Below are positions 5,192 to 10,207 of a stretch of DNA of 32,631 bases, in pieces. The position numbers and the translations under genes were made by a program. Under the pieces are notes generated by a model. That model was not told the DNA's origin and ran no database searches. It was given only the letters and a program-made list of their open reading frames with translations. The DNA lies in the NCBI GenBank assembly GCA_005882155.1, contig VBCQ01000161.1, forward strand, positions 1 through 32,631. The letters run 5' to 3'. The first letter of the stretch is position 1. Every line of letters starts with the position of its first letter. Source of the DNA: Betaproteobacteria bacterium. Lineage in GTDB: Bacteria; Pseudomonadota; Gammaproteobacteria; Burkholderiales; Burkholderiaceae_C.

Positions 5192-6175
5192 TCAGAGATC
5201 GTCGAGCGCGCGGGCCGCGCCGATCAGCGCCGGTGAAACCTTCGCCTGCACCACGTAGGTCGGAATGGCGTGTAGATAGCCACTGAATCGGCCCTTGCTC
5301 TCGAAGCGAGCGCGAAACGGCGAGCGATCGATTCGCTCCCCGAGGCGCGCAACAATGCCGCCGCCGATGTACATGCCGCCACGCGCGCCGAGCGACAGCG
5401 CCAGGTTGCCGGCCACGGTGCCGAGAAAGCTGAAGAAAAGCTCGAGCGCTTCGTCGCAGCGCGTGTCACTGCCGGCGAGCGCGCGGTCGGTGATCTCGGC
5501 GGCGCTGAGCGACGAGGCCCGCTCGCCGGCCAGCTCGCACACCGCGGCGTGGAGATTCACGAGGCCTTGGCCCGACACCGCACGCTCGGCCGACGCGTGA
5601 CCGAAGCGCTGGCGCAGGATTGCGACGACGCGCTCTTCGCGCTCGTCGGTCGCGGGGAGGCTAACGTGGCCGCCTTCGCCGTTGATCGGTATCGCTCCAT
5701 GGCCATGCGTCTGCGGAAGCAGCCCCGACACGCCGAGCCCCGTGCCGGGACCGATGAGGCCGAGCGGCGCGCCGGCCACCGGCTCTCCGTTGCCCACCTG
5801 CCGCAGATCGTCCCGGCTGAGTGCGGGAAGCGACAGCGCGAGCGCAGTGAAGTCGTTGATGACGAGGAAGCGCTGCAGACCGAGCTCCGTACGCACCGCC
5901 TCGATCGAGAAGGTCCAGTCGTGATTGGTCATCCGGACCTGGTCGCCGACAACCGGGTTGGCGATCCCGATCGCACACCAACGCGGCGGCGGCCGCCGAT
6001 GTTCTGCCAGGTAGTGGCGCATCGCATCGAGCAGCGACGCATGCGAAGCGCACGGCAAGGTATCGATGTCGGTGAGCAGGTCGCCGGCGCTTTGCTGCCA
6101 CGCGAAGCGCGCGTTGGTGCCGCCGATGTCGCCGACGAGGCGGGGAAATGTTTGATCGATGTGGCTAGACTGCAT
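5192..6175 (-). CDS. glk: Glucokinase
   Basis: PRLVGDIGGTNARFAW (phosphate-binding motif), VINDFTALALSLP, GPGTGLGVSGLLP, GEGGHVSLPATDERE. Confidence 0.93.
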   Translation of the reverse strand: MQSSHIDQTFPRLVGDIGGTNARFAWQQSAGDLLTDIDTLPCASHASLLDAMRHYLAEHRRPPPRWCAIGIANPVVGDQVRMTNHDWTFSIEAVRTELGLQRFLVINDFTALALSLPALSRDDLRQVGNGEPVAGAPLGLIGPGTGLGVSGLLPQTHGHGAIPINGEGGHVSLPATDEREERVVAILRQRFGHASAERAVSGQGLVNLHAAVCELAGERASSLSAAEITDRALAGSDTRCDEALELFFSFLGTVAGNLALSLGARGGMYIGGGIVARLGERIDRSPFRARFESKGRFSGYLHAIPTYVVQAKVSPALIGAARALDDL

Positions 6176-6202
6176 TTTTTTATCTTAGCCGCAGAGGAGA
6201 CG

Positions 6203-7942
6203 ATGGCAGTCAGGCAACTTCTTTCGCTGGCTTTCGCGCTGTCGCTGCTGGCGGCGTGCACTGCACCGCCACCCGCCGCACCGGCGCCGCAAGCCGCCGC
6301 ATCGGCTGCATCGGCGCCGGCGCAGCCGATCGCGCCGTTGACCGTTGCGGGCACGTTCGCCGACAACGCAATCGTCTATGCCTTGATCACCGACCGCTTC
6401 GACAACGGCAACCCGGCCAACGACAACGCCTACGGCCGCAAGCGCGAAGCGGCACCGCAAGACGATGTGGCCACTTTCCACGGCGGCGACTTGAAGGGCG
6501 TGACGAACAAATTGCGCGACGGCTGGTTCAAGCAACTGGGCGTCAACGCGATCTGCATCAGCGCGCCGTACGAGCAGATCCACGGCTGGGTCGTCGGCGG
6601 CAGCAAGGAGTTCAAGCGCTACGCCTACGACGGCGACGACGCGCTCGACTACACGCTGCTCGACGCCAACATCGGAACGGCCGACGAGCTGCGCGAGATG
6701 GTTGACACGGCACACGCGCAAGGCATCCGCATCGTCTTCGACGTGCAGATGAATCACCCCGGCGAGCTCGACATCCAGACCGCGCAAGAGCTCGGCGTGC
6801 GGGTGCTGTGGCCGGGCGCGTCGGGCGCGACGCTGCGCAACTACGACAGCTTCATCGACCACAGCAACTTCGCCTTCGGCGACTGGTGGGGCCGAGACTG
6901 GGTGCGCGCGGCGCTGCCCGGCTACCTCGCCGGCGGGAGCGACACCTACACCATGCAAGTCGCCTCGCGGCCCGACTTCCGCACCGAGAGCAAGGAGCCG
7001 GTGAAGCTGCCGCGATTCCTGCGCAACAAGCCCGGGACCCGGGCCGTCGACTTGACGAACGCGACGGTGCGCGACCATCTCGTGAAGTGGCTCGCCGATT
7101 GGGTACGCGATTACGGCATCGACGGAATTCACGCCGTTTCGGTCCAACACGTCGAGCCCGATACCTGGCTCGCACTGAAGACGAAGGCCACGCAGGCGCT
7201 CGCCGAATGGAAAGCGAAGAACCCGTCGAAGAAGATCGATGACCAGCCGTTCTGGATGGGCGGCGAATATCCGGATTTGGGACCCGAGCGCCATGCGCTG
7301 AACGACTTCGGCTTCGACGCGCTCGTCAACTTCGACTTCCAGCGGCGCAGTGCCGGCCTGGAGCAACCCGAGCCGCTGTTCGCCCGCTACGCCAGTGCAC
7401 TGGCGGGTCGCCCCGGTCATTCGACGCTGAGCTTTCTGTCGTCACGCGACACTGAGCTGTTCGATCGCTCGCGGCTCGTCGACGGCGCTGCCGCGTTGCT
7501 GCTGGCGCCGGGTGGCGTGCAAATTTTCTACGGCGACGAAACGGCGCGTCCCGCAGGACGCGCTCCGGCATCCGACCCGCGCCAAGCGACTCGCTCCGAC
7601 ATGAACTGGAGCAGCGCCGACCCCGCGCTGCTGGCGCATTGGCGCAAGCTCGGCAGCTTCCGCTCGCGCCATGTCGCACTCGCCCGCGGCACGCACCAGA
7701 TGCTGTCCGAAACGCCTTATGTTTTCAGCCGCATCGACGCAGCCAGCGATGACCGCGTCGTCGTCGCGATGAACGTCAGCGGCGAGGTCGTCATTCCGGT
7801 CGGCAGCACCTTCCCCGACGGGCGCTGGCTGAAGGACGCGTACGGCGGCCAGCAGGTCGTCGTCGCCAACGGTCAGGTGAAGCTCAACGCAGCGCGCTAC
7901 GTGCTGCTCGAACGTACCGCCTCGCCGACGCTCGCGCAGTAA
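6203..7942 (+). CDS. MalS-like GH13 alpha-amylase-family lipoprotein with degenerate catalytic motifs
   Basis: Lipobox signal peptide MAVRQLLSLAFALSLLAAC; VYALITDRFDNGNPANDNAYGR, FHGGDLKGVTNKL, ISAPYEQIHGWV, FDVQMNHPG, FWMGGEY, LLAPGGVQIFYGDE resemble E. coli MalS. Nucleophile motif reads GIDGIHAVSVQHV instead of GIDGFRVDTxKHV. Confidence 0.88.
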   Translation: MAVRQLLSLAFALSLLAACTAPPPAAPAPQAAASAASAPAQPIAPLTVAGTFADNAIVYALITDRFDNGNPANDNAYGRKREAAPQDDVATFHGGDLKGVTNKLRDGWFKQLGVNAICISAPYEQIHGWVVGGSKEFKRYAYDGDDALDYTLLDANIGTADELREMVDTAHAQGIRIVFDVQMNHPGELDIQTAQELGVRVLWPGASGATLRNYDSFIDHSNFAFGDWWGRDWVRAALPGYLAGGSDTYTMQVASRPDFRTESKEPVKLPRFLRNKPGTRAVDLTNATVRDHLVKWLADWVRDYGIDGIHAVSVQHVEPDTWLALKTKATQALAEWKAKNPSKKIDDQPFWMGGEYPDLGPERHALNDFGFDALVNFDFQRRSAGLEQPEPLFARYASALAGRPGHSTLSFLSSRDTELFDRSRLVDGAAALLLAPGGVQIFYGDETARPAGRAPASDPRQATRSDMNWSSADPALLAHWRKLGSFRSRHVALARGTHQMLSETPYVFSRIDAASDDRVVVAMNVSGEVVIPVGSTFPDGRWLKDAYGGQQVVVANGQVKLNAARYVLLERTASPTLAQ

Positions 7943-10207
7943 TCAGCCGGCGCCGACGCAGTCGACGTAATAGCGCCGCGCGGCGCCCTCGCCTTCGTCT
8001 TCGACGAGGCCGTGCACGTCGGTGTCGAAGCCGGGGAATGCGGCGTTGAACTCGCGCGTGAAGCGCAGGAAGTCGACGATCTTGCGGTTGAAGCGCTCGC
8101 CCGGAATCAGCAGCGGGATCCCGGGCGGATACGGCGTCAGCAGTGCAGTCGTGATGCGTCCTTCGAGCTCGTCGATCGCCACCCGCTCGGTCTTGCGGTG
8201 TGCGATGTAGGAGAACGCGTCGCTCGGCTTCATCGCGGGCTGCAGATCGGACAGGTACATGTCGGTGGTCAGCCGTGCGATGTCGCCCTTCGCGTACATC
8301 GCGTGGATGCTCTGGCACAGATCGCGCAAGCCCATTCGTTCATAGCGCGGGTACGCGGCGACGAATTCGGGCAGCACGCGGCCCATCAGCGCATTGCGGT
8401 CGTAGTCGTCCTTGAACTGCTGCAGCGCGGTCAGGAGCGTATTCCAGCGGCCCTTGGTGATGCCGATCGTGAACATGATGAAAAACGAGTAGAGACCGGT
8501 CTTCTCGACCACCACGCCGTGCTCGGCCAGGTACTTCGTGACGATGCTCGCCGGGATGCCGGTCTTGCCGAACTTGCCCGACATGTCGAGACCCGGTGTG
8601 ATGATCGTGCTCTTGATCGGGTCGAGCAGGTTGAAGCCCTCGGCGAGCTCGCCGAAGCCGTGCCACTTCTCGCCCGCCTTGAGCACCCAGTCGCCGCTCT
8701 TGCCGATGCCTTCGGCGGCGAGCTTCTCCGGGCCCCAGACGGTGAACCACCAGTCGCGGCCGAACTCCTTGTCGACCTTGCGCATCGCACGGCGAAAGTC
8801 GAGTGACTCGAGAATGCTTTCCTCCACCAGCGCCGGGCCGCCGGGCGCTTCCATCATCGCCGCTGCGACGTCGCACGACGCGATGATCGCGTACTGCGGG
8901 CTCGTCGACGTGTGCATCAGGTAGGCCTCGTTGAAGAGATGCCGGTCGAGCTTGCGCTCCTGCGCATCCTGCACCAGCACCTGCGATGCCTGGCTGATTC
9001 CGGCGAGCAGCTTGTGTGTCGACTGCGTTGCGAAAACGAGCTGATCTTTCGGCCGCGGCCGGGCGCGGCCCATCGAGTGGTACTCGCCGTAGAAGGTGTG
9101 GAAAGCGGCGTGCGGCAGCCAGGCTTCGTCGAAATGCAGCGTATCGATGTAGCCGTCGAGCGAGTGCTTGATCGTCTCGGTGTTGTAGAGCACGCCGTCG
9201 TAGGTGCTCTGCGTCAGCGTCAGGATGCGCGGCTTGACCTTGCTCGGGTCGACGTCCTTCAACAGCGGATTCGATGCGATCTTGCGGCGGATCGACTCGG
9301 GCGAGAACTCGGCCTGCGGGATCGGCCCGATGATGCCGTATTGATTGCGCGTCGGCGTCAAGAACACAGGCACAGCGCCGGTCATGATGATCGAGTGCAG
9401 GATCGACTTGTGGCAGTTGCGGTCGACGACGACGACGTCGCCGGGCGCCACCGAGTGGTGCCAGACCATCTTGTTCGACGTACTCGTTCCGTTGGTCACG
9501 AAGAAGCAGTGATCGGCGTTGAAAATGCGCGCCGCGTTGCGCTCGCTCGCCGCGACCGGCCCGGTGTGGTCGAGCAGCTGGCCGAGCTCTTCGACCGCGT
9601 TGCAGACGTCGGCGCGCAGCATGTTCTCGCCGAAGAACTGGTGGAACATCTGGCCGACCGGGCTCTTCAGAAACGCCACGCCGCCCGAATGCCCCGGGCA
9701 GTGCCATGAGTACGAGCCATCCTGCGCGTAGTCCATCAGCGCGGCGAAGAATGGCGGCGCAAGCGAGTCGAGGTAGCTCTTCGTTTCGCGAATGATGTGG
9801 CGCGCGACGAACTCCGGCGTGTCCTCGAACATGTGGATAAAGCCGTGCAGCTCGCGCAGGATGTCGTTCGGAATGTGCTGCGAAGTGCGCGTCTCGCCGT
9901 ACAGGTAGATCGGGATGTCGGCGTTCTTGAAGCGGATTTCCTTGATGAACTTTCGCAGGCTCAGCACCGCGGGGTCGAGCTCAGGGCCGGACGCGGTGAA
10001 CTCTTCGTCGTCGATCGACAAGATGAACGCGCCGGCACGGCTTTGCTGCTGCGCGAACTGCGACAGGTCGCCGTAGCTCGTCGCACCGAGCACTTCGAAG
10101 CCCTCTTTGACGATGGCATCGGCGAGCGCGCGGATGCCCAGGCCCGAGGTATTTTCCGAGCGGAAGTCCTCGTCGATGATGACGATCGGGAAACGAAAAC
10201 GCAGCAT
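7943..10207 (-). CDS. Orn/Lys/Arg decarboxylase (PLP-dependent, fold type I with N-terminal wing domain)
   Basis: MLRFRFPIVIIDEDFRSENTSGLGIRALADAI...SYSWHCPGHSGGVAFLKSPVG...FFGENMLRADVCNAVEELGQLLDHTGP...FVTNGTSTSNKMVWH...ATQSTHKLLAGISQASQV (PLP-lysine region). Confidence 0.94.
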   Translation of the reverse strand: MLRFRFPIVIIDEDFRSENTSGLGIRALADAIVKEGFEVLGATSYGDLSQFAQQQSRAGAFILSIDDEEFTASGPELDPAVLSLRKFIKEIRFKNADIPIYLYGETRTSQHIPNDILRELHGFIHMFEDTPEFVARHIIRETKSYLDSLAPPFFAALMDYAQDGSYSWHCPGHSGGVAFLKSPVGQMFHQFFGENMLRADVCNAVEELGQLLDHTGPVAASERNAARIFNADHCFFVTNGTSTSNKMVWHHSVAPGDVVVVDRNCHKSILHSIIMTGAVPVFLTPTRNQYGIIGPIPQAEFSPESIRRKIASNPLLKDVDPSKVKPRILTLTQSTYDGVLYNTETIKHSLDGYIDTLHFDEAWLPHAAFHTFYGEYHSMGRARPRPKDQLVFATQSTHKLLAGISQASQVLVQDAQERKLDRHLFNEAYLMHTSTSPQYAIIASCDVAAAMMEAPGGPALVEESILESLDFRRAMRKVDKEFGRDWWFTVWGPEKLAAEGIGKSGDWVLKAGEKWHGFGELAEGFNLLDPIKSTIITPGLDMSGKFGKTGIPASIVTKYLAEHGVVVEKTGLYSFFIMFTIGITKGRWNTLLTALQQFKDDYDRNALMGRVLPEFVAAYPRYERMGLRDLCQSIHAMYAKGDIARLTTDMYLSDLQPAMKPSDAFSYIAHRKTERVAIDELEGRITTALLTPYPPGIPLLIPGERFNRKIVDFLRFTREFNAAFPGFDTDVHGLVEDEGEGAARRYYVDCVGAG

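Follow-up and report, generated by a model that had tools for sequence, protein, structure and literature searches.

A MalS-type alpha-amylase homologue that has lost its active site and is probably kept as a non-catalytic lipoprotein

E. coli MalS, a periplasmic alpha-amylase of GH13 subfamily 19 (PDB 8im8; PMC10223318), carries an N-terminal CBM69-like domain and a permuted domain C. The protein described here is encoded in a 32,631-nucleotide stretch of a betaproteobacterial genome (the window). It shares the MalS fold with about 43% identity over the model match, has the same structural Ca2+ ligands, and, like MalS, is exported from the cytoplasm, in its case by prediction. It differs from MalS in being a lipoprotein without the CBM69-like domain, in a domain C that appears contiguous at the C-terminus, and in the replacement of the residues corresponding to Asp460, Arg458, Lys463, His564, Tyr275, Tyr276, and Tyr318. 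Closer still are the MalS-like amylases of Burkholderiales (Albitalea, Rhizobacter, Rubrivivax, Methylibium, and others), which are orthologues with 58-72% identity and the same domain layout. Most of them have the lipobox Cys, and in Albitalea and Methylibium the gene adjoins the Orn/Lys/Arg decarboxylase gene ldc, as here. Unlike the window protein, these amylases keep the full catalytic set, and malS in Albitalea, Methylibium, Rhizobacter, and Rubrivivax adjoins maltose/maltodextrin transporter genes, whereas the window malS does not.

Alpha-amylase-family proteins with non-catalytic roles are known outside bacteria. The ectodomains of 4F2hc and rBAT (SLC3) are membrane-anchored alpha-amylase-family domains whose role as glycosidases is undemonstrated and which are kept as protein partners (PMC8537225). 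They differ from the present case in being animal proteins of another GH13 branch with a known partner transporter. In plants, isoamylase 2 (ISA2) works with ISA1 on alpha-glucans. ISA2 is a GH13 protein with noncatalytic functions (ISA1/ISA2; PMC12510319). It pairs with an active GH13 enzyme, ISA1, while such a partner is undetected in the draft genome from which the window derives. A literature search of limited scope found no bacterial MalS-type GH13 pseudoenzyme.

The gene and its neighbours are laid out as follows.

5192 to 6175, minus strand: divergent glucokinase; the start codons of this gene and malS lie 27 bp apart
6191 to 6205, plus strand: Shine-Dalgarno-like GAGGAG followed by the ATG (gcagaggagacgatg), read from the sequence
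6203 to 7942, plus strand: malS-like GH13 gene with a lost active site, ATG to TAA, 579 amino acids
6203 to 6259, plus strand: lipoprotein signal peptide ending in the lipobox LLAAC, from the translation
7943 to 10201, minus strand: Orn/Lys/Arg decarboxylase, convergent with malS, the stop codons adjoining

The malS-like frame is uninterrupted, with no stops or frameshifts, and its GC3 of 0.85 is typical for genes in the window. No consensus promoter was matched upstream, a weak test that counts neither way. Cys19 is the residue expected to be lipidated, and a Cys at the matching position is present in most orthologues. The protein scores 532 bits against the NCBIfam model NF007060, below the curated equivalog cut-off of 790. 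Its relatives in the PDB are 8im8, 9us3, and 9qf3 (E below 1e-108), with values for 8im8 of 2e-120 by phmmer and 1.6e-43 by Foldseek. The protein is thus a member of MalS-like GH13 (GH13_19-like) by descent, and an earlier description of the locus, made from the letters alone and here called the sequence-only reading, was right to call it an intact MalS-like lipoprotein frame. Residues 530-576, in the C-terminal domain, match E. coli MalS at residues 130-180 and, in the Klebsiella enzyme, its N-terminal part. Because of this match, domain C, which is circularly permuted in MalS, appears to have an unpermuted form in the beta-proteobacterial MalS-like proteins.

The active-site regions, aligned with the orthologues, read as follows.

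6404 to 6490, plus strand: Ca2-site ligands Asn68, Asn70, Asn73, Asp74, Gly94, and Asp96, all kept
6554 to 6556, plus strand: Cys118, replacing a Trp that is invariant among orthologues (MalS W247)
6626 to 6640, plus strand: YDGDD, replacing YHGYY
6740 to 6766, plus strand: CSR I, DVQMNHPGE; Asp180, Asn184, and His185 kept, V182Q and Y188E (MalS Y318) changed
7124 to 7153, plus strand: CSR II, GIHAVSVQHV, where the orthologues have GFRADTVKHV
7262 to 7276, plus strand: CSR III, GEYPD; acid/base Glu355 kept, W357P and G358D changed
7439 to 7453, plus strand: CSR IV, SSRDT, where the orthologues have SSHDT; His replaced by Arg415 (7445-7447), Asp416 kept

The GH13 catalytic triad (Asp of beta4, Glu of beta5, Asp of beta7) is incomplete, with Val312 (codon 7136-7138) in place of the nucleophile and with Glu355 and Asp416 present. 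The invariant Arg that stands two positions ahead of the nucleophile has become His310 (codon 7130-7132), the Lys of CSR II is Gln315, and the His that precedes the beta7 Asp is Arg415. The His, Tyr, and Tyr of the -1 subsite (MalS H273, Y275, and Y276) are all Asp in YDGDD. Each substitution quoted in the sequence-only reading (Val312, His310, Arg415, and YDGDD), together with the retained Glu355, is found at the codon given for it. Further active-site substitutions that it did not list are W118C, K315Q, Y188E, Y255S, W357P, G358D, and Q460R, and it was silent on Asp416, the transition-state stabiliser, which is retained. The side-chain ligand positions of the conserved Ca1 and Ca2 sites are likewise all retained, including His316 in CSR II. 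Against a contact set of 20 catalytic and substrate-contact residues, made up of the MalS residues published in PMC10223318 plus the classical GH13 subsite residues, 13 are altered. From these losses we infer that the protein is no longer active as an amylase, since double displacement is beyond a retaining GH13 enzyme that lacks the nucleophile, the Arg, the Lys, and the -1 subsite.

Orthologues were gathered by a genome-collection scan and by whole-genome searches at the genus, family, order, and class levels (samples of 401 genomes for the family, 399 for the order, and 369 for the class). The nucleophile Asp, the Arg, the Lys, the Glu, the Asp, and the beta7 His are kept by 29/29 other MalS-like homologues, including those of two species of the same genus, Albitalea terrae and a Burkholderiaceae MAG, and the loss is therefore private to this lineage. 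No second bearer of the dead form occurs among these 29 homologues, with the genus thinly sampled at 5 genomes, and the same substitutions are found in none of the homologues from the family, order, and class samples or from the one genome-collection scan. Over the core, the window protein is 72% identical to each of the two same-genus orthologues, which are 86% identical to each other, and the alignment contains no indels relative to these two sisters.

The changes fall where the chemistry once was. The window protein departs from the consensus at 29 of the 206 columns on which 19 orthologues all agree, compared with 0-10 for any other tip, and the active-site changes are therefore not due to chance. 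Among the motif and pocket columns, 22/71 invariant positions are changed versus 7/135 elsewhere (odds ratio 8.2, Fisher P=1e-6); this broad pocket set was partly picked after the alignment had been viewed, and the tight and published sets, which are untuned, agree with it. For the textbook conserved regions I-VII alone, 11/37 columns are changed versus 18/169 elsewhere (P=0.007). Where the two sisters agree with each other, the window protein differs outside the pocket at 70/350 columns and the outgroup Methylibium orthologue at 64/350, while inside the pocket the counts are 25/97 and 6/97, respectively. This concentration in the active site lends support to the proposal that the protein is catalytically dead, as judged from its residues. 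AlphaFold predicts that the dead protein folds as well as its active sister, since model confidence is the same for both: pLDDT 73.2 and pTM 0.79 for the former (12-sequence alignment), and 73.5 and 0.78 for the latter, from the same alignment with the sister placed first, with weak loops that are much alike. The best PDB matches of the predicted model are MalS-type amylases, and domain B of the model is too poor to describe the new pocket.

The surroundings of the gene record the loss of a transporter operon. Albitalea terrae has, in order, glk on the minus strand, four genes that we take from their translations and from family knowledge to be malK, malE, malF, and malG, then malS, a glk-rpiR fusion, a sensor-kinase-like gene, and the decarboxylase on the other strand. 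The window glucokinase is the counterpart of the glucokinase upstream of malKEFG (72% identical), and the window decarboxylase is 93% identical to the one that likewise lies downstream of malS in Albitalea terrae. Because these two counterparts flank malS directly, the malKEFG operon and glk-rpiR have been excised here, leaving malS between glk and ldc. The divergent glucokinase pointed out in the sequence-only reading is therefore real, and it is the separate upstream glk that remains. It is not orthologous to the glk-rpiR fusion found after malS in relatives, to which its identity is only 48%. Genome searches of the draft, which comprises 504 contigs and is 87% complete, detected no other GH13 protein, MalE, orthologue of the operon's MalF, MalQ, or glycogen phosphorylase. 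Glycogen phosphorylase is also absent from Albitalea terrae, but other GH13 proteins and MalQ are present there. Two relatives have a palindrome resembling GTAGCCAAACTAC / GTAGCAAAACTAC upstream of glk (L066 2590-2900 and L064 8960-9000), which may be an operator for a sugar regulator; in the window it seems degraded or absent. At 436-2154 on the plus strand of the window, a 572-aa ORF with no Pfam match adjoins nusA at the place where infB is expected on the minus strand, and probably represents an antisense reading frame within a GC-rich gene.

A third state of the locus is found in another genome of the same genus, G004, which has the nusA-fabI-glk order of the window and in which malS is reduced to a 33-codon piece beside glk. 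This remnant (L064 9028-9126, G004:C27) contains an internal TGA and is 70% identical to the active sister and 52% identical to the window protein, and no GH13 protein was found in G004. Pathway loss thus led to decay in G004 and to an intact dead protein in the window genome.

The sister species do carry the canonical Asp, Arg, and His, an outcome that the sequence-only reading had named in advance as contrary to its proposal. Canonical sister orthologues alone cannot separate recent decay from repurposing; selection tests do. A codon model (GY, F3x4) that lets omega differ between branches was applied to a 15-taxon tree, which places the query as sister to the pair from its own genus. For the query branch as a whole, omega is 0.088 against a background of 0.079, with omega = 1 rejected (2dlnL about 100), a value that is uninformative by itself as it averages the pocket with the rest. 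When the codons are partitioned, omega outside the pocket is 0.082 for the query and 0.084 for the active sisters. In the pocket it is 0.104 (CI 0.073-0.141) for the query versus 0.020 for the sisters, a rise of about 5-fold (LRT 21), where the values are rough, since synonymous divergence on the query branch is close to saturated (about 3.4-3.7 neutral substitutions per codon), and average the time before and after pocket loss on the single branch that a single bearer genome provides. The textbook-CSR partition gives 0.102 versus 0.011 (LRT 27), the published MalS contact set has a query optimum at about 0.2-0.5 versus 0.009, and none of the control tips shows a rise in pocket omega. The pocket looks released from constraint rather than positively selected. 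Positive selection in the pocket was dropped as a candidate: an estimate of w=20 was an artefact of the optimiser bound, and the profile peaks at 0.2-0.5.

Taken together, these observations are best explained by a former MalS-type alpha-amylase that has been kept as a non-catalytic lipoprotein, i.e., a GH13 pseudoenzyme (probability about 0.68). In this lineage malKEFG and the downstream glk-rpiR were excised, and remaining alpha-glucan metabolism is undetected. Constraint on the pocket was lifted and the catalytic and sugar-contacting residues were replaced, while selection on the rest of the (beta/alpha)8 barrel, the calcium sites, and the C-terminal domain continued at its former strength. 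The protein might now work by way of its outer surface, or of a pocket remodelled with acidic residues, and serve as an anchored scaffold or bind a partner or ligand. A tentative extension, less probable than not by some distance, is that the anchored protein with its remodelled pocket serves a new ligand or partner, which would make it a bacterial counterpart of 4F2hc/rBAT arisen within one genus.

The chief weakness of this reading is its single bearer genome, a draft assembly. Against retention there is also G004, where the almost complete loss of the gene means that it is dispensable in that genome. The window gene could accordingly be a relic in early decay, an amylase rendered useless by operon loss and now drifting, whose open frame is luck and whose end state is the 33-codon scrap with its TGA; the loss of the maltodextrin operon and pathway, the active form kept by the sisters, and the promoter-like site not seen upstream in the weak test would all fit. 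This is unlikely. A neutral-decay simulation that is independent of branch length, in which a change of 22/71 pocket columns takes neutral drift of about 0.15 substitutions per site, expects 5-9 stops and about 40/135 changes outside the pocket, and 0 and 7 are observed. The gene was therefore not simply drifting during pocket loss. Omega outside the pocket is unraised, and GC3 has stayed typical for window genes. The partitioned codon models and the simulation likewise reject relaxation of the whole gene, and the stops, frameshifts, and loss of constraint along the full length that define a decayed pseudogene are absent. The distinction drawn earlier between a pseudoenzyme and a decayed gene is thus upheld. 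As for sequencing or assembly error, the draft state of the genome is the sole point in its favour, and it was rejected as scarcely credible: dozens of in-frame substitutions are clustered by function without an indel, several are two-step codon changes, and the glk-malS neighbourhood recurs in G004.

A role in new chemistry is a more distant prospect than early decay. A neofunctionalised enzyme or binder, with an acid-rich pocket suited to another reaction or to a metal or cationic ligand, would be in keeping with the five pocket residues that turned acidic (Asp143, Asp145, Asp146, Glu188, and Asp358), with the retention of Asp180, His185, Glu355, and Asp416, and with several substitutions that need two nucleotide steps. 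It is nevertheless quite improbable, as the contact-set w is at most about neutral with no sign of positive selection, and the new residues are absent from every relative, so that a conserved new motif cannot be shown. Very much less probable is that the protein is an amylase still, acting through another nucleophile or an altered mechanism. The acid/base Glu355 and the stabiliser Asp416 are kept, but the nucleophile, Arg, Lys, His, and the -1 and +1 aromatics are all gone, and downstream maltodextrin uptake and metabolism are undetected in the genome. Under the preferred reading of a retained pseudoenzyme, the suggestion that the protein binds glucan fares poorly. Glucan binding is unlikely: the aromatic and polar residues that contact the sugar have gone along with the catalytic ones (the same 13/20), and maltodextrin use is seemingly absent, with the transporter, MalQ, glycogen phosphorylase, and other GH13 proteins undetected in the draft. 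The protein may have a regulatory or structural role.

Alpha-amylase-family pseudoenzymes are already known in animals, and noncatalytic GH13 functions in plants; the bacterial MalS-type case would be the new element. It also carries a warning for annotation, as family models match the window protein as an alpha-amylase by similarity. Pseudoenzymes are mostly recognised long after the event. Here, one genus displays three outcomes: an active amylase with its transporter, a gene that has been almost wholly deleted, and one whose frame is intact and whose active site alone is erased. Such a set allows a direct test of the conditions under which an enzyme without a use is retained for the sake of its fold.
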